A stretch of 64,000 bases of DNA from positions 62,001-126,000 of the forward strand of contig NZ_AJYA01000002.1 in assembly GCF_000265075.1 (NCBI RefSeq). Direction: 5' to 3'. This DNA comes from Nitritalea halalkaliphila LW7. Lineage in GTDB: Bacteria; Bacteroidota; Bacteroidia; Cytophagales; Cyclobacteriaceae. The stretch's first letter is position 1, and every line of letters starts with the position of its first letter. The translations under genes and the position numbers were made by a program. A model generated the notes under the pieces. It was not told the origin of the DNA, did no database searches, and saw nothing but the letters and a program-made list of their open reading frames with translations. Below, one piece after another: positions 19,794 to 27,134 of the stretch.

Positions 19794-20470
19794 ATGGCTA
19801 TATTAACCGTTTCTGAGCTCTCTAAGTTTTATTCCTCCGGAGAAAAGCAGCTCCGCATTCTCGATAAAGTATCCTTTTCCGTGCAGGCTGGCGATAAAGT
19901 CGCTATCGTGGGTCCCTCCGGCAGTGGCAAGACCACCTTGCTGGGGCTCTGTGCTGGCCTGGACACGGGAAGTGCAGGAAGCGTGCAGCTCTTCGGTCAG
20001 GCCCTGGAACCGCTTTCTGAAGACCAGCGCGCAGCCTTACGAAACGAGCACGTCGGTTTCATTTTCCAAAACTTCCAGCTTCTCCCCACCCTGACTGCCT
20101 TAGAAAATGTCATGGTGCCACTAGAGCTGAAAGGGCGTAAAGATGCCGCCCTCCGGGCAAAGGACTTGCTCGCGCAGGTGGGACTTCAGGATCGCCTCGG
20201 GCATTATCCGGCCATGCTTTCCGGCGGAGAACAGCAGCGGGTATCTATCGCCCGTGCCTTTGCGAATGAACCCAAACTGCTTTTTGCGGATGAACCCACA
20301 GGTAATTTGGACGCTGAAACTGGGCAGAAAGTGAGGAACTCCTGTTTAATCTAAATGCGGAAAAGGGAACTGCCCTCGTGCTGGTTACCCATGACCGTGA
20401 GCTCGCGAAACGTACCGACCAAGTGTACCTCATAAAGGGTGGCCAACTAAATGCCCTGTCTCATGCATAA
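19794..20470 (+). CDS. YbbA/LolD-like ABC transporter ATPase (one frameshift)
   Basis: The ATPase of a MacB/LolD-class exporter. Walker [11 protein letters not shown] (about residue 40), the [14 protein letters not shown] signature and Walker [13 protein letters not shown] are present. At about 20331 the frame breaks after TGQKV; the expected ending ([12 protein letters not shown], then [19 protein letters not shown] with the H-loop, stop at 20468-20470) is in the next frame, recovered by one added G. The start of the permease gene (20463) overlaps the restored end by 8 bases. Likely partner of the next gene. Confidence 0.9.
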
Positions 20471-22977
20471 GATATCCTGGATTTTAAAAATGGCCTGGCG
20501 TGATTTCCGTAAAAGTAGCGCCCGGCTGGTGCTATTCGTGGCGGCGATGGTGCTGGGCGTAGCGGCCATCGTGGCCATCTATAGTTTTGGGAAGCTGCTG
20601 CGCGCGGACATTGCCCGGCAGGGCAAAGAGCTCCTCGGCGCAGATCTCGTCCTCTCGAATAACCGCCCCCTCGACTCGCTGACATTCGCTCCCGAGCCCA
20701 TAGCCGAGGCCGCAGAGGTGAATTTCGCGAGCATGGTGGCTTTCCCGCAGACAGGGGAAAGCCGACTCACGCAGGTGCGCGCCCTCGAGGGAAACTTCCC
20801 TTTTTACGGGAAACTGGAGACCGTACCTGAAGCTGCGGAACAGACCTTTCGCGCTGGCGGCGCACGGGCTCTGGTGGAGAAAACGCTGATGGCCCAGTTC
20901 GGCGCCCAGGTCGGAGACAGCATTCAGGTGGGAAATCGGCGCTTCCGGATCGAGGGATTGCTGGAGAAGGTGCCTGGACAGACGGGCATTACGGCCACGG
21001 TGGCACCTGCAGTTTATATCCCGATGGCCTACGTCGAAGAAACGGGCTTGATTCAGTACGGCAGCCGCCTAAATTATGAGCGCTATTTTCAGTTCGAGGA
21101 AAGCGTGGATGTGGGCGCCTGGTGCGGGAAAATGATCAGGCTTGGGAGTCGGAGCGCATTCGAGCCACTACGGTGAGTGAGAGCCAAAACCGCACAGGAA
21201 GGGCCTTCGATAACTTAGCCGGATTTCTTAGTTTGGTGGCGTTTATTGCGCTGCTGCTGGGCTGCGTGGGCGTGGGAAGTGCTGTAAATGTTTTTATCAA
21301 AGAAAAGCTAGCCTCCGTGGCCGTACTGCGCTGTCTGGGCGTAAGCGCTCGTGTGGCCACGCTCATTTACCTGGTTCAGATCCTGCTGATGGGGACGGTC
21401 GGGGCTCTACTCGGTTCCACGCTGGGGACGGCGCTGCAGCTGGCTCTGCCCTACGTGCTGGGGGATTTTCTGCCCGTGGAAGTGAGCTTTGGGATTTCTT
21501 GGTCCGCGATTGGTTTAGGCATGCTAACAGGGATAGTCGTTTCCGTGCTTTTTGCGCTGCTGCCCCTGCTGAAAATTCGACGCGTTTCCCCGATGGCGAC
21601 CCTGCGCCCCGAGATGCAGGAGGCCTTCGGCCAAGACCCACTGCGTTACCTCGTGGTGCTGGCGATTTTGGCTTTTGTCTATGGCTTTAGCTACTTTCTT
21701 TTAGCTAATTTTCTGGTAGCGATCGGCTTTACTGCATTTGTCTGCGGGGCTTTTTTGCTCCTCTGGGGGCTGGCGACGCTGCTGATGAAAAGTATTCGCC
21801 GCTTTCTACCGCTGTCTCTTCCCTACACGCTACGGCAGGCACTTGCTAATTTATACCGCCCGAACAACCAGACAGTGGCCCTAATCGCTACTGTGGGCTT
21901 GGGGACAGCCATGATCAGCACCCTGATTTTCGTCCAAAGCCAACTGCTGGAAGAGGTGAAGTTCGCTGACAGAGGAGATCAACCGAATATGCTGCTCTTC
22001 GATATTCAGACACATCAGGTGGAGGCCGTTCGGGCCAAATTAGAACAGAAAGACCTGCCCATCCTGCAGCAGGTGCCGATCGTTACCATGGGCCTCGAAG
22101 CCATTAACGGGATAAGCCGGAAGCAAAACGATACCCTGCCCGAGGAAGAAAGGCGTTCGCGCTCCCTCTATAACAGAGAGTTTCGCGTCACCTATCGAGA
22201 CACCCTCATCGCTTCCGAGCGGCTTACAGCAGGCAAGCTGCGGCCTTACGCAAGTGGTAGCGACAGTATTTTCGTTTCTGTAGATGAAAGTTATGCGCGC
22301 CGAACAGGTTTGGAGCTCGGCGACCGACTGGACTTTAATGTACAGGGGAGACCGCTTCGCACCTATGTGGGTAGTTTACGCGAGGTCAAGTTCAACCAGG
22401 TGAGCACGAACTTTTTGGTGCTCTTTCCTGAAGGGGTGCTGACGAATGCCCCTAAGTTTCATGTCTTGATCACGAAAACCAAAGATGAATTCGAGGCTGC
22501 AGCGGTGCAGGCAGAGGTGTCCGCGCCTATCCGAATATTTCCATGGTGAACCTCGGCTCGATTCTGGAAACGCTCGAAGAGGTCCTGGGAAAAATCAGCT
22601 TGGTGATTCGTTTTATGGCACTTTTTAGCATCGCAACAGGGATTTTGGTGCTGATCAGTAGTCTGATTATGAGTAAGTACCAGCGGCTTTACGAGAGTAT
22701 TTTGCTCCGAACCCTTGGCGCTTCGAGTGCGCGTGTGGCGAAAATTCAGACGCTGGAGTACTTTTTCCTCGGCAGCTTAGCGGCGCTCAGTGGGGTGTTT
22801 ATTTCGGTAATCGCCAGCTATCTGCTCAGTGTACACGTGTTTCAGATCCCCTTCCGCTGGACTTTGCCAGAGGCCCTTTTCGTCTATGCTGCCATCACGG
22901 GGCTGACCGTTCTCCTCGGCTGGCTGAATGGACGCTCAGCGAAGGATACGGCTCCCATCGCCATCTTGCGCGGGTAG
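20463..22977 (+). CDS. YbbP-like ABC transporter permease (two frameshifts)
   Basis: A FtsX-type permease of about 838 residues, read through two breaks: near 21118 (one C lost in GCCTGG) and near 22525 (one base lost in GCGCC). The N-terminal [25 protein letters not shown] and one membrane helix are followed by a large extracytoplasmic domain, a helix cluster (LVAFIALLLGCVGVGSAVNVF), a middle domain and final helices ending with GRSAKDTAPIAILRG. Two FtsX domains and length fit YbbP. With the preceding ATPase and the divergent TesA-like esterase it forms a conserved trio whose substrate is unknown. Confidence 0.9.
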
Positions 22978-23212: not shown

Positions 23213-24022
23213 ATGCCACAAGTTGAAGTCAATGGACACCATATTTTCTATGTCGAAGAAGGGGAGGGAGAAGAAACCCTAGTTTTCGCGCATGGGTTAC
23301 TCTGGAGCCACAAAATGTTTCGAGAGCAGTTCGCGCATTTTAAGAAGCGTTATCGGGTAATCGCGTATGACCATCCGGGCCAGGGCCAAAGTGAATTGCC
23401 TGCTGCGGGCATGGATATGGAAACCCTCACCGCTGATGCGCTTCAGTTTATCGTGAAAGTGGTCGGGAAACCGGTGCATTTTTTAGGTCTCTCTATGGGG
23501 GGATTTGTGGGCATGCGTCTGGCAGCGCGCCATCCGGAGTGGATAGCTTCTCTGGTGCTTATGGAGACCTCAGCAAATACGGAGCCAGTGGAAAACCTGC
23601 CTCAGTACAAGATGCTGAATGGAGCTGTTAAACTTTTCGGTGTTACCTCCGCGGTGGCAGGGCCCGTGATGAAGATTATGTTTGCGCAGAGTTGGTTGGA
23701 GAATCCTGCTCATGCTGAAGCGAAGGCGTTTTGGACGAAGGAGCTTAAGGCGAACAAGCGTAGCATAAGTCGATCGGTGGAGGCTGTTATTTACCGGAAG
23801 GGAGTCGCGGGGGAGTTAGGGCAGATCACCTGTCCGACTTTAGTCCTGGTGGGGGATGAGGATGTGGCGACTAAGCCAGAGAAGGCCAAATTTATTCAGA
23901 TGAATATCTCTGGGGCCAAGCTGCACATTATCCCAGGAGCTGGACACAGCTGTACCATCGAAAAACCAGAGGAGGTGAATCGCCTGCTGGAAGAGTGGTA
24001 TGCGGAGACGGTCGGGATCTAA
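23213..24022 (+). CDS. alpha/beta-fold hydrolase
   Basis: A 269-residue alpha/beta hydrolase; I chose the ATG at 23213 (MPQVEVNGHHIFYVEEGEG), the natural start of the fold, over an upstream one that would include a palindrome. The oxyanion region is FAHGLLWS, the nucleophile is S94 in GLSMGG, the acid D217 in GDEDVAT and the base H245 in GAGHSC. There is no signal peptide, so it is cytoplasmic. The substrate is unknown; it could be an esterase, lactonase or C-C hydrolase. It stands 174 bases before the MarR gene. Confidence 0.88.
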   Translation: MPQVEVNGHHIFYVEEGEGEETLVFAHGLLWSHKMFREQFAHFKKRYRVIAYDHPGQGQSELPAAGMDMETLTADALQFIVKVVGKPVHFLGLSMGGFVGMRLAARHPEWIASLVLMETSANTEPVENLPQYKMLNGAVKLFGVTSAVAGPVMKIMFAQSWLENPAHAEAKAFWTKELKANKRSISRSVEAVIYRKGVAGELGQITCPTLVLVGDEDVATKPEKAKFIQMNISGAKLHIIPGAGHSCTIEKPEEVNRLLEEWYAETVGI

Positions 24023-24163
24023 TCTATTTGCGGGTATTTCGATGTAGCTCTCATGCTGAGGCCTTTTTTTAGCCGTGGTGCCGTCGGATGCGTGGGATTT
24101 GTGCATGAGTCTGAAAAATTTTTAAGAAATTATACATTTTTTGTGAACAATTCTTTACTTTTA

Positions 24164-24177
24164 AATGTATATACATT
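24164..24177. promoter_or_regulatory. perfect 14-bp palindrome, candidate MarR operator
   Basis: AATGTATATACATT is its own reverse complement and lies 19 bases before the MarR-family start codon. Position and symmetry fit an autoregulatory site bound by a winged-helix dimer. I see no second copy in the window. Confidence 0.6.
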
Positions 24178-24196
24178 AAAGGCGTTTGTAAAAGAA

Positions 24197-24652
24197 ATGA
24201 GTATGAAATTAGAGGAGGCGATCAAGCAGAAGGCGTTTAAGGATCCGTATAACAAGACGGTGGTGAACCTCTTGTACACGAATAGCTTCGTGATCGCGTC
24301 CCAAAACGCGCTCTTTAAGCCTTTCGGGCTATCTCCAGAGCAGTATAATGTGCTGCGTATATTACGTGGGCAGAAGGGCAAGCCGATTACGGTGAGCTCC
24401 ATCCAAGACCGCATGTTAAATAAGATGTCTAATGCCAGTCGATTAGTAGAAAAGCTCAAGCAGAAGGAGCTGGTAAACCGAGAGGAATGTGCCACGGACC
24501 GCAGGCAGGTGGACATAACCATAACAGAGAAGGGCTTGGAGATTCTCAGCCAGTTAGACGTAGAAGTGGAGGAGTTTAACCGGCAGATCGTTCATCTTAC
24601 TGTGGAGGAAGCCGAGCAGTTAAATGACTTGCTGGATAAGCTTCGCGGTTAG
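24197..24652 (+). CDS. MarR-family transcriptional regulator (MhqR-like by context)
   Basis: A 151-residue MarR protein; I chose the start at 24197 (MSMKLEEAIKQKAF), because longer versions would include the palindromic operator. The winged helix runs from about residue 45 to 112 (LSPEQYNVLRIL, MLNKMSNASRLVEKLKQKELV, wing CATDRRQVDITITEKG). One cysteine, C98, stands at the base of the wing. Next to YceI, an MhqE-like dioxygenase and an MhqD-like esterase, it resembles MhqR of Firmicutes, which responds to quinones. That role is an inference from neighbours. Confidence 0.88.
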   Translation: MSMKLEEAIKQKAFKDPYNKTVVNLLYTNSFVIASQNALFKPFGLSPEQYNVLRILRGQKGKPITVSSIQDRMLNKMSNASRLVEKLKQKELVNREECATDRRQVDITITEKGLEILSQLDVEVEEFNRQIVHLTVEEAEQLNDLLDKLRG

Positions 24653-24690
24653 CACTGCATTCAGCGAAGTGCTTAAGGAAGCATGAGGTA

Positions 24691-24713
24691 AGGGGTGTGG
24701 CAGACCCCTTTTT
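24691..24713 (+). terminator. terminator after the MarR gene
   Basis: AGGGGT and ACCCCT pair around GTGGCAG and are followed by TTTTT. The stem is short (6 bp) but G+C-rich. Its presence suggests yceI is transcribed separately from the regulator. Confidence 0.75.
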
Positions 24714-24800
24714 AAGCACCTTAATCGGTGTATAGACATTAATTGCCTGGGCTGTTATATGGGGCTTTGCGCAAGCCGAGTCCTCCAGGCGTTCCCGAGT

Positions 24801-24851
24801 TCACCCGTATATGTTAGTCACCCGTGAAACATCGTCACCCGTATGCCTTCA
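24801..24851. repeat. three direct TCACCCGT repeats with 17-base period
   Basis: TCACCCGT occurs at 24801, 24818 and 24835, each followed by 9 variable bases (ATATGTTAG, GAAACATCG, ATGCCTTCA). The period is exactly 17. The repeats lie 110-160 bases before yceI, so they could be binding sites for a regulator. Too short and few for CRISPR. Confidence 0.7.
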
Positions 24852-24962
24852 ATTGGTAAATCGAGAACAGCGCTCCTTCACTGCGAGCGTTTGATTCAAA
24901 GTCTCTTTAACTCGCATTCATTTCTTACATAAACCATATCGTTCATTTAAATTAGCTAAATC

Positions 24963-25481
24963 ATGAGTGTAGCAAGCAACTGGGTAATCGACCCAACCCA
25001 TTCCGAAGTATCTTTTAAGGTAAAACATTTGGTAATTTCCACTGTAACTGGTTACTTTAGGGAGTTCGAAGGTAGTGCCGAGGCAGAAACAGAAGATTTT
25101 CAAGGCGCAAAGGTAAAATTCTCTGCTAAAATCGATTCTATTGACACGAATCAGAAAGACAGAGACGCGCACTTGAAGTCAGCTGACTTTTTTGATGCTG
25201 AAAATCATCCGAACTTGACCTTCGAAGGCCACATTCAGGGAGATGAATTAGTGGGAGAAATCAGTATTCGCGGCACGAAAAAGCCGATTACCTTAGCGGT
25301 AGATTTCGGTGGTGTCGCAGGTGATCCTTATGGCAATACAAAAGCCGGATTCGAGATTTCAGGTAAGTTGAACCGAAAGGAATTTGGACTTACTTGGAGT
25401 GCCGTAACTGAGGCAGGTAGTGTAGTAGTAAGTGATCAAGTACGCCTTTTACTGAGTGTACAGCTCGTAAAGCAGGCCTAA
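24963..25481 (+). CDS. YceI-family lipocalin-like protein
   Basis: A 172-residue YceI-domain protein. The start WVIDPTHSEVSFKVKHLVIS, the central DRDAHLKSADFFDAENHPNLTF and the TLAVDFGGVAGDPYG segment identify the family, whose fold binds polyisoprenoid or other long hydrophobic molecules. No signal peptide is visible, so this copy is cytoplasmic, unlike E. coli YceI. It stands between the MarR gene and mhqE/mhqD-like genes and may buffer hydrophobic quinones, which is inference. Confidence 0.92.
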   Translation: MSVASNWVIDPTHSEVSFKVKHLVISTVTGYFREFEGSAEAETEDFQGAKVKFSAKIDSIDTNQKDRDAHLKSADFFDAENHPNLTFEGHIQGDELVGEISIRGTKKPITLAVDFGGVAGDPYGNTKAGFEISGKLNRKEFGLTWSAVTEAGSVVVSDQVRLLLSVQLVKQA

Positions 25482-25530
25482 ACAAGCACTTTATAGTGAA
25501 TAGATAGATAAACGAAATAAAGAGGGGTCT

Positions 25531-25555
25531 GGTCATGTGGCTGACCTTTCTTTTT
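25531..25555 (+). terminator. weak hairpin with T-run after yceI
   Basis: GGTCA and TGACC around TGTGGC, followed by TTTCTTTTT. The stem is only 5 bp, so it may give partial termination before the dioxygenase gene. Confidence 0.4.
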
Positions 25556-25576
25556 ACCCTCCTAAATGACTGAAAC

Positions 25577-26527
25577 ATGCAAGCACATATTCAGGGCATC
25601 CACCATATCACAGCGATAGCAGGTGACCCACAAAAAAACATTGATTTCTACTGCGGTGTTTTAGGACTCCGCATGGTAAAAAAGACGATAAACTTCGATG
25701 CTCCCGACGTGTATCACTTTTACTTCGGTGACCGTGTAGGTACTCCGGGAACTGTTTTTACGACCTTCCCCTTTAAAGGCGCGCGAAAAGGCACTAAGGG
25801 AGTGGGTGAGGTGCAGTATACTGCTTTTTCTATTCCGAAGGGCAGCTTAGATTTCTGGAGAGCGCGTGTGAAGCGCTTTGGATTTCCTATCTCGGATACG
25901 CTGACACGCTTTGGAGAGGCTTACATTCGTTTTGAGGATCATGATGGCATGGGGATAGAGCTTATCGAAGCCAGTGAAGACGCCCGCGTCGGCTGGGGAG
26001 AGGGTCCTGTGCCGGAGGAGTATGCCATTAAAGGCTTTTATGGCGCCACGCTTACACTAAGAAGCCGAGAAGCTACAGTGAAGCTACTCACTGGATTTAT
26101 GAATTATCGCTTTATCGCTGAAGAAAATGGGCGTTACCGCTACGGAACCGCTGGACGGCCGGGGGATATCGTCGATATCGTGGAGCAGCCGGAGGGTAGG
26201 ACTGGGGTCCAAAGCGCCGGTTCTGTACATCATATCGCTTTTCGAACGGCGGATGGCAGTTCGCAGCGAGAAATTCAGGGAATCCTACACGCGAACGGTT
26301 ATTCGGTGACAGAGGTGAAAGACCGAAATTATTTCACTTCTATTTATTTCCGAGAGCCGGGAGGTGTTTTATTCGAAATAGCCACTGACACGCCTGGGTT
26401 TGCGATTGATGAGGACGAAGCCTTGTTGGGCGAGGCCTTAAAACTGCCGGGCTGGGCGGAGAAACATCGGGATAAAATCGAGGAGAGCTTACATCCTGTC
26501 ACGCTAGATTACAGCGCCTATGTCTAA
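25577..26527 (+). CDS. ring-cleaving dioxygenase, MhqE/MhqO-like (two VOC domains)
   Basis: A 316-residue protein with two vicinal-oxygen-chelate domains. The first begins IQGIHHITAIAGDPQKNIDFYCGVLGLRMVKK in pieces matching the family, with H9/H10 as likely metal ligands; the second has GSVHHIAFRTAD and GVLFEIATDTPGF. This is the pattern of MhqE/MhqO, proposed to open hydroquinone rings with Fe. The stop overlaps the next gene by 8 bases (shared with ATG at 26520), so the pair is translationally coupled. Confidence 0.9.
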   Translation: MQAHIQGIHHITAIAGDPQKNIDFYCGVLGLRMVKKTINFDAPDVYHFYFGDRVGTPGTVFTTFPFKGARKGTKGVGEVQYTAFSIPKGSLDFWRARVKRFGFPISDTLTRFGEAYIRFEDHDGMGIELIEASEDARVGWGEGPVPEEYAIKGFYGATLTLRSREATVKLLTGFMNYRFIAEENGRYRYGTAGRPGDIVDIVEQPEGRTGVQSAGSVHHIAFRTADGSSQREIQGILHANGYSVTEVKDRNYFTSIYFREPGGVLFEIATDTPGFAIDEDEALLGEALKLPGWAEKHRDKIEESLHPVTLDYSAYV

Positions 26528-27134
26528 TGTAAAGGTAGCAGGGAAGGCTTTGGGCGAAGCCCAAAGGGTGGCCATCTTACTTCACGGAAGGGGGGCGAGT
26601 GCCACAAGTATTTTAGGTCTGCGAGAGGCATTAGCGCTAGAGGATTTTGCGCTGCTGGCGCCCCAAGCACCTGGCAATACGTGGTACCCGTATAGCTTTA
26701 TGGCGCCGGATGCGTCGAATGAGCCGGCTTATAGTGCCGCTATTCGTATGCTTCAGGAGCTGGTGGAAGCCGTAATCGAACAGGGGTATAGCAGTGAACA
26801 GCTGTACTTTATCGGGTTTTCTCAGGGGGCCTGTTTGGCTTTAGAATTCACTGCACGGCATGCACGCCGCTACGGTGGTGTGGCGGCATTCACGGGAGGG
26901 CTAATCGGAGAGCAGCTTCGAGCAGACAAATATGAGGGGGACTTTTCCGGAACTCCTGTTTTTATAGGTGCCAGTCATCAGGATTTTCACGTTCCACTAA
27001 GTAGAATCGAGGAAAGTGTGCAGTTACTAACAGCAATGGGAGCTGTGGTGAAGACCATTATTGCCCCTGATACGCAGCATATTATCCGAGAGAAAGAGGT
27101 AGATTGGGTTAATACACATATCCTAAACCCCTAG
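26520..27134 (+). CDS. MhqD-like phospholipase/carboxylesterase
   Basis: A 204-residue serine hydrolase of the abhydrolase_2 group. The nucleophile is S101 in GFSQGA, the acid D155 in SHQDFHVP and the base H187 in DTQHII; LLHGRGASA forms the oxyanion region. It overlaps the dioxygenase gene by 8 bases. The same two-gene unit (mhqE-mhqD) is induced by quinones in Bacillus and Staphylococcus. A perfect CTTTGGGC-GAA-GCCCAAAG palindrome lies within its first codons (26549-26567). Confidence 0.9.
   Translation: MSNVKVAGKALGEAQRVAILLHGRGASATSILGLREALALEDFALLAPQAPGNTWYPYSFMAPDASNEPAYSAAIRMLQELVEAVIEQGYSSEQLYFIGFSQGACLALEFTARHARRYGGVAAFTGGLIGEQLRADKYEGDFSGTPVFIGASHQDFHVPLSRIEESVQLLTAMGAVVKTIIAPDTQHIIREKEVDWVNTHILNP
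26549..26567. repeat. palindrome inside mhqD-like gene
   Basis: CTTTGGGC and GCCCAAAG (8 bp perfect) around GAA, codons 10-16 of the esterase. In mRNA it could form a stable stem close to the start codon. It shares the TTTG...CAAA form of other palindromes here. Confidence 0.8.

Follow-up and report, generated by a model that had tools for sequence, protein, structure and literature searches.

Quinone-responsive regulons of Bacillus subtilis, those of MhqR, YodB and CatR, are reported to include nitroreductases and quinone reductases, and the MhqR operator of Staphylococcus aureus was placed at positions -6 to +12 (PMC6798810) and given as TATCTCGAA-ATCGAAATA (PMC12893000). For Paenibacillus sp. 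B2, an mhq operon whose induction by the lignin fragment DDVA reached 400-1000-fold was proposed to encode its degradation pathway (PMC12673573). YceI proteins have been described as carriers of isoprenoids or ubiquinone-8, the barrel being occupied by an isoprenoid or ubiquinone in most of their many solved structures, and the YceI lipocalin BcnA belongs to a system directed against lipid peroxyl radicals (PMC9113575). Here, a 64,000-nucleotide (nt) stretch of the Nitritalea halalkaliphila LW7 genome (contig NZ_AJYA01000002.1, positions 62,001 to 126,000; the window) was analysed, in which a marR regulator gene is followed by genes encoding a YceI protein, a ring-cleavage dioxygenase and a hydrolase. 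We know of no clear role for cytosolic YceI proteins. The locus is read here, with a probability of about 0.7, as the autoregulated hub of a MarR-controlled regulon for the detoxification of electrophiles, most likely quinones or hydroquinones, and the four-gene block itself probably constitutes a repressor-controlled unit detoxifying quinone-like reactive compounds.

The four-gene block and its conservation

An earlier note, made from the window alone, had described the four genes as a locus, and the block was indeed present there, on the plus strand (Table 1). The dioxygenase was used to search genome contigs, and of 206 relatives the 80 best were kept, which are named records of Algoriphagus, Belliella and relatives. 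The marR, yceI, dioxygenase and hydrolase genes were all found in 77 of these 80 loci, with order and strand identical in 77/77, the sample having been picked by dioxygenase similarity and not representing an unbiased frequency. The three incomplete loci were left out of the synteny count: two were contig ends (L042 and L087), and one was a contig of a metagenome-assembled genome (L111), where the sequence upstream of yceI looked foreign. An alpha/beta hydrolase gene at 23213-24019 was considered as a fifth member and rejected as non-core, being located within 700 nt upstream of marR in only 39/76 loci. Its product is PcaD-like (140 bits versus a cut-off of 256) and is possibly a loosely linked partner.

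Table 1. Coordinates of the four genes and of the predicted regulatory elements in the window
Feature	Positions	Strand	Remarks
Putative Bacteroidota -7 element TACTTTTA	24156..24163	+	5/6 specified bases of TAnnTTTG; directly before operator 1
Predicted operator 1, perfect palindrome AATGTATATACATT	24164..24177		core TGTATATACA at 24166-24175; core ends 21 nt before marR ATG
marR, MarR-family repressor, 151 amino acids (aa)	24197..24652	+	Pfam MarR_2/MarR; one conserved Cys98 beside the wing
Predicted operator 2, TGTATAGACA	24729..24738		upstream of yceI
yceI, YceI-family beta-barrel protein, 172 aa, without signal peptide	24963..25481	+	PF04264; nearest solved relative 1WUB
MhqO-type VOC ring-cleavage dioxygenase, 316 aa	25577..26527	+	PF00903; 3OAJ alignment; predicted ligands His10, His219, Glu267
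Abhydrolase_2, MhqD-like esterase or C-C hydrolase, 204 aa	26520..27134	+	GFSQG nucleophile Ser101; 4H0C match

The MarR protein matched Pfam MarR_2 with 41.3 bits. Its gene likely starts at ATG 24197, with 24203 as the alternative start, and position 24164, with which the range given in the earlier note begins, turned out to be the first base of the palindrome and not a start codon. Cys98 was kept in 76/78 distinct orthologues and 18/22 paralogues. A cysteine beside the wing is common among MarR proteins, so thiol sensing via Cys98 is only a possibility.

Membership of the second gene product in the YceI family was clear, with 146.9 bits for PF04264 versus a gathering score of 23.7 and an E-value of 4.8e-29 for its nearest solved relative. 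As the domain starts at residue 7 and the list of open reading frames (ORFs) shows no earlier in-frame start, a signal peptide could not be accommodated, in agreement with the earlier description, and the YceI of the locus should be cytosolic.

The best solved match of the dioxygenase was B. subtilis MhqO (3OAJ, E 2e-90), followed by 4HUZ, a 2,6-dichlorohydroquinone dioxygenase, and the protein belongs to the ring-cleavage dioxygenase MhqA/E/O family. Its previous designation was MhqE-like, whereas the closest solved protein was MhqO, in a comparison that covered solved proteins, with MhqE not among them. The metal ligands of 3OAJ are reported as His11, His218 and Glu266 (PMC12673573); the residues aligned with them, in this order those listed in Table 1, were invariant in 85 distinct orthologues, the His-His-Glu metal site of VOC-fold extradiol dioxygenases of the MhqO/LinE type being intact. 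The hydrolase gene overlaps the dioxygenase gene by 8 nt (26520-26527), as had been noted before. The hydrolase matched Abhydrolase_2 with 76.6 bits and its solved relative with an E-value of 4e-62, and the GFSQG motif was present in 80/80 distinct orthologues aligned. It had been called MhqD-like before, but its score against the NCBIfam MhqD equivalog was 21.3 bits with a cut-off of 325.

A search with the MarR protein in 59 relatives gave a match at E 1e-20 or better in 51, with at least 66% identity in eight, the genome of origin included. Among 30 marR loci fetched, all eight with close marR genes contained yceI and the dioxygenase gene within 1.5 kb, and the remaining 22 (47-58% identity) were without them within this distance. 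At least seven of the 22 distant marR genes adjoined another gene of the same functional set: an exported YceI at L029, L030, L034 and L039 (the last with a flavin mononucleotide reductase too), a pirin at L025, an old yellow enzyme at L027 and a nitroreductase at L038; the neighbours of the other 15 were read by eye only.

Predicted operators and the proposed regulon

Of 78 named loci, 73 had the exact sequence TGTATATACA in the 120 nt preceding marR, four had it with one mismatch and one with three mismatches, so that sites with at most one mismatch occurred at the marR promoter in 77/78 loci versus 2/78 for the reversed control. TAnnTTTG is the -7 consensus of Bacteroidota. It was located at most 13 nt before the operator in 29/77 relatives, where 0.18 loci were expected, and TAnnTTT[AG] in 52/77 (one locus, L115, was left out of this count). 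Because the predicted -7 box directly precedes operator 1, the bound repressor would cover the predicted marR start site.

The gap between marR and yceI carried a site with at most one mismatch in 74/78 loci (16 exact) versus 2/78 for the reversed control. Together with the conserved gene order, this predicted operator bears out the earlier inclusion of YceI, which on this evidence is a core member of the locus. The gap was 310 nt long in the window, whereas in 77 relatives its median was 86 nt (range 69-163), counted between the stop codon of marR and the first yceI residue in the alignment. The extra sequence (24740-24935) contains three copies of TCACCCGT with 17-nt spacing, at 24801, 24818 and 24835; the possibility that the extra 200 nt are a repeat was ruled out, as they are present in a single copy in the genome.

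To the extent that the motif predicts targets, the locus seems to stand at the centre of a broader regulon and not to be one isolated operon. The TGTATATACA sequence occurred at six sites in the N. halalkaliphila genome and at none in the reversed control, and at 60 sites, with 23 for the control, in the seven relatives with close marR genes. Among these 66 sites in eight genomes, 39 had an ORF of at least 80 aa starting with ATG within 60 nt, and 31 of them belonged to families seen in two or more genomes; among the 23 reversed-control sites, the corresponding numbers were six and zero. Two of the eight recurrent families were artefactual, leaving 29 sites: two sites assigned to TolC-like genes (L133 and L156) were rejected since they appeared, by eye, to lie inside the end of an upstream RND-pump gene, and an ORF antisense to marR was spurious, with its sites already counted for marR. 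After this clean-up, the predicted targets were marR and pirin (seven genomes each), YceI, either cytosolic or a lipoprotein (six), nitroreductase (four), old yellow enzyme (two) and a SnoaL-like protein (two). Family representatives were identified by Pfam/NCBIfam, and the lipoprotein character was read by eye from the N-terminus.

In the N. halalkaliphila genome, the site was located 21, 15 and 9 nt before the ATG of marR, nitroreductase and pirin, respectively, and TGTATAGACA sites preceded the old yellow enzyme gene by 25 nt and yceI by 224 nt. Against the N-ethylmaleimide reductase subfamily, whose cut-off is 403, the old yellow enzyme reached 372.9 bits. SodA, with a site 43 nt upstream in this genome only, is a possible target and was left uncounted. 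The pirin under the operator (L003 1522-2151, contig C29) is 210 aa long with the N-terminal Pirin domain only, its relative at L138 having 284 aa with Pirin_C, and it looks frameshifted or truncated in the assembly. In 5/7 genomes (L126, L128, L147, L152 and L174), one TGTATATACA site lay between the lipoprotein yceI and a divergently oriented gamma-carbonic-anhydrase-like gene. A gene for a CarboxypepD_reg/Plug outer-membrane protein had a site at 92-244 nt in 6/7 genomes, recurred near a site in 2/6 further genomes and is considered a possible target only.

The further genomes were those of Belliella aquatica, Algoriphagus ornithinivorans, A. vanfongensis, Rhodonellum psychrophilum, Litoribacter ruber and Pararhodonellum marinum. 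The target families were fixed beforehand, and G208, with the same coordinates as G031, and L057 were dropped. These genomes contained 42 sites versus four of the reversed pattern, and the removal of two whose context repeated within a genome left 40 distinct ones. A total of 18 was located within 60 nt and 20 within 250 nt of a prefixed family. Six of the 18 were marR sites of loci already seen, and new were 12/34 within 60 nt and 14/34 within 250 nt. The new targets were lipoprotein YceI in 5/6 genomes, pirin in three, nitroreductase in two and old yellow enzyme in two.

Nitroreductase, old yellow enzyme, pirin, YceI, ring-cleavage dioxygenase and hydrolase are thus among the predicted members, and in this respect the regulon resembles known quinone/electrophile regulons. 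The earlier idea of a putative quinone-stress locus gains from this content.

A scan for Sigma-70 promoters was uninformative (4 found versus 4.4 expected), and a terminator-like hairpin after marR, noted by eye, was absent from the output of that scan. Further upstream, at 20451-22977, an FtsX/MacB-type ABC permease is present as three overlapping frames (MacB_PCD, FtsX and FtsX) next to an ABC ATPase at 19794, which represents a broken gene or assembly frameshifts.

Proposed function and competing explanations

In the proposed mechanism, a MarR dimer would bind TGTATATACA just downstream of the marR -7 box and the slightly degenerate site before yceI, blocking transcription, and would be released by a quinone-like ligand in its pocket or by modification of Cys98 at the wing. 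From the chemistry of their families, the nitroreductase and the old yellow enzyme encoded elsewhere in the regulon would reduce quinones or enones, the MhqO-type dioxygenase would open the hydroquinone ring and the hydrolase overlapping it would cleave the ring-fission product. The cytosolic YceI and the lipoprotein YceI, the latter found in many relatives under the same operator, could buffer lipophilic quinones or oxidised lipids on both sides of the inner membrane. Such a capture is proposed because other YceI proteins bind isoprenoids or ubiquinone and BcnA is reported to protect against lipid peroxidation (PMC9113575). A bolder version is put forward tentatively, as possible more than probable: one MarR may command an undescribed two-compartment quinone-handling system of Bacteroidota, in which the cytosolic YceI, encoded with the dioxygenase and hydrolase, would hand lipophilic (mena)quinones or their adducts over to enzymatic destruction and the lipoprotein YceI would perform the capture in the envelope. 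The cytosolic YceI, joined in relatives by an exported one, would stand under one predicted operator with typical quinone-detoxification enzymes. With a concrete predicted operator and a target list, the handling of quinones or electrophiles by YceI in vivo becomes directly testable in culturable relatives, e.g., Algoriphagus and Belliella.

The wider phylum was surveyed in an even draw of 148 genomes. A YceI of this type was present in 97 of them (E 1e-25) and the dioxygenase in 45 (E 1e-60). Forty YceI loci were fetched, mostly the best-scoring matches with some skipped; two same-family matches having the block (G168 and G133) were left out, and the sole locus with MarR (L214) was included out of rank order. 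Three loci were dropped, and in the 37 with a recognised YceI ORF, the genes within 3 kb encoded a Crp-type regulator in 13, a pirin in 12, the dioxygenase with the hydrolase in one and MarR in one, the Crp-type label being assigned by similarity to two queries, of which one was checked by Pfam. Such a cytosolic YceI beside a Crp-type regulator and/or pirin was seen in other Bacteroidota at L184, L206, L211 and other loci; at L184, with the order YceI-Crp-dioxygenase-hydrolase, the enzyme module may have swapped regulators.

Among 20 dioxygenase loci fetched, the hydrolase was located within about 3.5 kb in 12, and MarR and YceI were present in four, which were picked because YceI had already been seen close by and do not give a frequency. 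One of the four (L262) belongs to the same family. The other three lie outside the class and have other orders: YceI-MarR-dioxygenase-hydrolase (L244), YceI-MarR-pirin-dioxygenase-hydrolase (L245) and a weak MarR followed by YceI-dioxygenase-hydrolase (L246). The association of the four families therefore occurs in more than one arrangement. The neighbourhood survey suggested in the earlier note accordingly gave strong co-occurrence in one family and few cases beyond it.

Several observations weigh against a quinone regulon centred on this locus. Judged by the regulon content, the inducer might also be some electrophile other than a quinone, and the sensing of quinones by the MarR protein is put forward as a good hypothesis. 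The dioxygenase-hydrolase pair is without its own site, the yceI-dioxygenase gap carrying one in only 1/78 loci. Operator 2 of the window is far from yceI, with about 200 nt of additional sequence in between, since the marR-yceI gap measures 310 nt instead of about 86 nt. Outside the family, a cytosolic YceI was rarely found beside MarR (1/37 loci), and the operator was not found in L244 and L246, four-family clusters outside the class. The motif alone is also unspecific: 20/40 sites in the further genomes and 27/66 in the first eight had no regulon family within 250 nt, the pattern was no commoner than its reverse in one genome (G001, 9 versus 9), and of five extra TGTMTAKACA sites in the N. 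halalkaliphila genome only two, before yceI and the old yellow enzyme gene, precede a regulon gene.

The alternative that survives best, and which is nonetheless considered unlikely, is a response of the regulon to lipid peroxidation or to reactive carbonyls such as aldehydes and enones rather than to quinones, with YceI as an antioxidant lipocalin and the NemA-like enzyme as the main effector. The action of BcnA on lipid peroxyl radicals (PMC9113575), the subfamily score of the old yellow enzyme and the site preceding SodA would fit such a response, whereas it is not evident what the ring-cleavage dioxygenase, a fixed partner in the locus, would do under carbonyl stress. Moreover, yceI is constantly flanked by marR and the dioxygenase gene and not by a cytochrome b561 gene as in Burkholderia, b561 not having been sought elsewhere in the genomes.

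A catabolic operon for one aromatic compound, such as a lignin- or algal-derived phenol or a chlorinated hydroquinone, whose MarR senses the substrate and for which stress protection is secondary, is judged distinctly improbable. It is suggested by the homology of the dioxygenase to MhqO and to the dichlorohydroquinone dioxygenase and by the DDVA-induced operon of Paenibacillus sp. B2, proposed as a degradation pathway (PMC12673573), but the co-regulated reductases, pirin and YceI form a stress set rather than a pathway. The next genes downstream in the window, on the other strand, encode a protein with a weak beta-propeller match and a ChlI-type protein; the loci of relatives were scanned for window-derived proteins only, which weakens the case against a catabolic role.

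It is hardly credible that YceI is an unrelated passenger between a regulator and an mhqOD-like pair, as might be suspected from its mostly different neighbours in the 37 phylum loci, since the predicted operator directly before yceI is conserved in 74/78 loci, the second, exported YceI carries the operator in 5/7 and 5/6 genomes and YceI adjoins a related MarR in 4/22 other loci. That the genes are a standard MhqR locus, common to Firmicutes or acquired from them, is very improbable as well: the class of regulator and the kinds of dioxygenase and hydrolase are the same, and the operator lies directly after the predicted -7 box where that of S. aureus spans -6 to +12 (PMC6798810), but the operator sequence differs, the MarR matches S. 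aureus MhqR weakly, behind 19 other distinct sequences, and the hydrolase stays far below the MhqD cut-off.

Comparison with described systems

For the preferred reading, a MarR-controlled electrophile regulon with YceI as a member, searches of open-licence literature gave no paper whose listing describes this association, and those for a similar quinone or detoxification regulon in Bacteroidetes gave none that was about one by title and abstract. In the NemR-NemA system of E. coli, a repressor likewise controls an old yellow enzyme of the N-ethylmaleimide reductase type, but NemR is a TetR-type protein and neither YceI nor a dioxygenase is involved.

The BcnA-LcoA-PsrA system of Burkholderia shares with the locus a YceI protein, BcnA being used against lipid-derived oxidative stress (PMC9113575). 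BcnA is described as periplasmic and linked to cytochrome b561, whereas the YceI encoded here is predicted to be cytosolic and is linked to MarR and the dioxygenase; its domain starting at residue 7 and its neighbours in the 77 complete loci do not match the features of a secreted YceI lipocalin of the BcnA type. The mhq operon of Paenibacillus sp. B2 also has an MhqO-type dioxygenase beside an alpha/beta hydrolase and a MarR regulator (PMC12673573). It differs in containing an azoreductase and an MFS transporter, with no YceI mentioned in the available part of that report, and in being proposed as catabolic. No azoreductase was present among the recurrent target families of the 66 sites in eight genomes.

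The closest system is the mhqRED locus of S. aureus, or the MhqR regulon of B. subtilis, with a MarR-type repressor, a ring-cleavage dioxygenase and a phospholipase/carboxylesterase-type hydrolase. Unlike in these, the predicted operator here is TGTATATACA and not the TATCTCGAA-ATCGAAATA of S. aureus, YceI is included with its own predicted operator, and a pirin, a NemA-like old yellow enzyme and a lipoprotein YceI are among the predicted targets. A phmmer search with the MarR protein against solved sequences placed S. aureus MhqR (9QDR, E 3.3e-5) 20th of 49 distinct sequences, the best being 3U2R (E 1.6e-15). Because of the different operator, this rank and the hydrolase score below the MhqD cut-off, membership in the MhqR regulon is doubtful and the regulator is not demonstrably MhqR, while the locus would resemble the MhqR system in its working.

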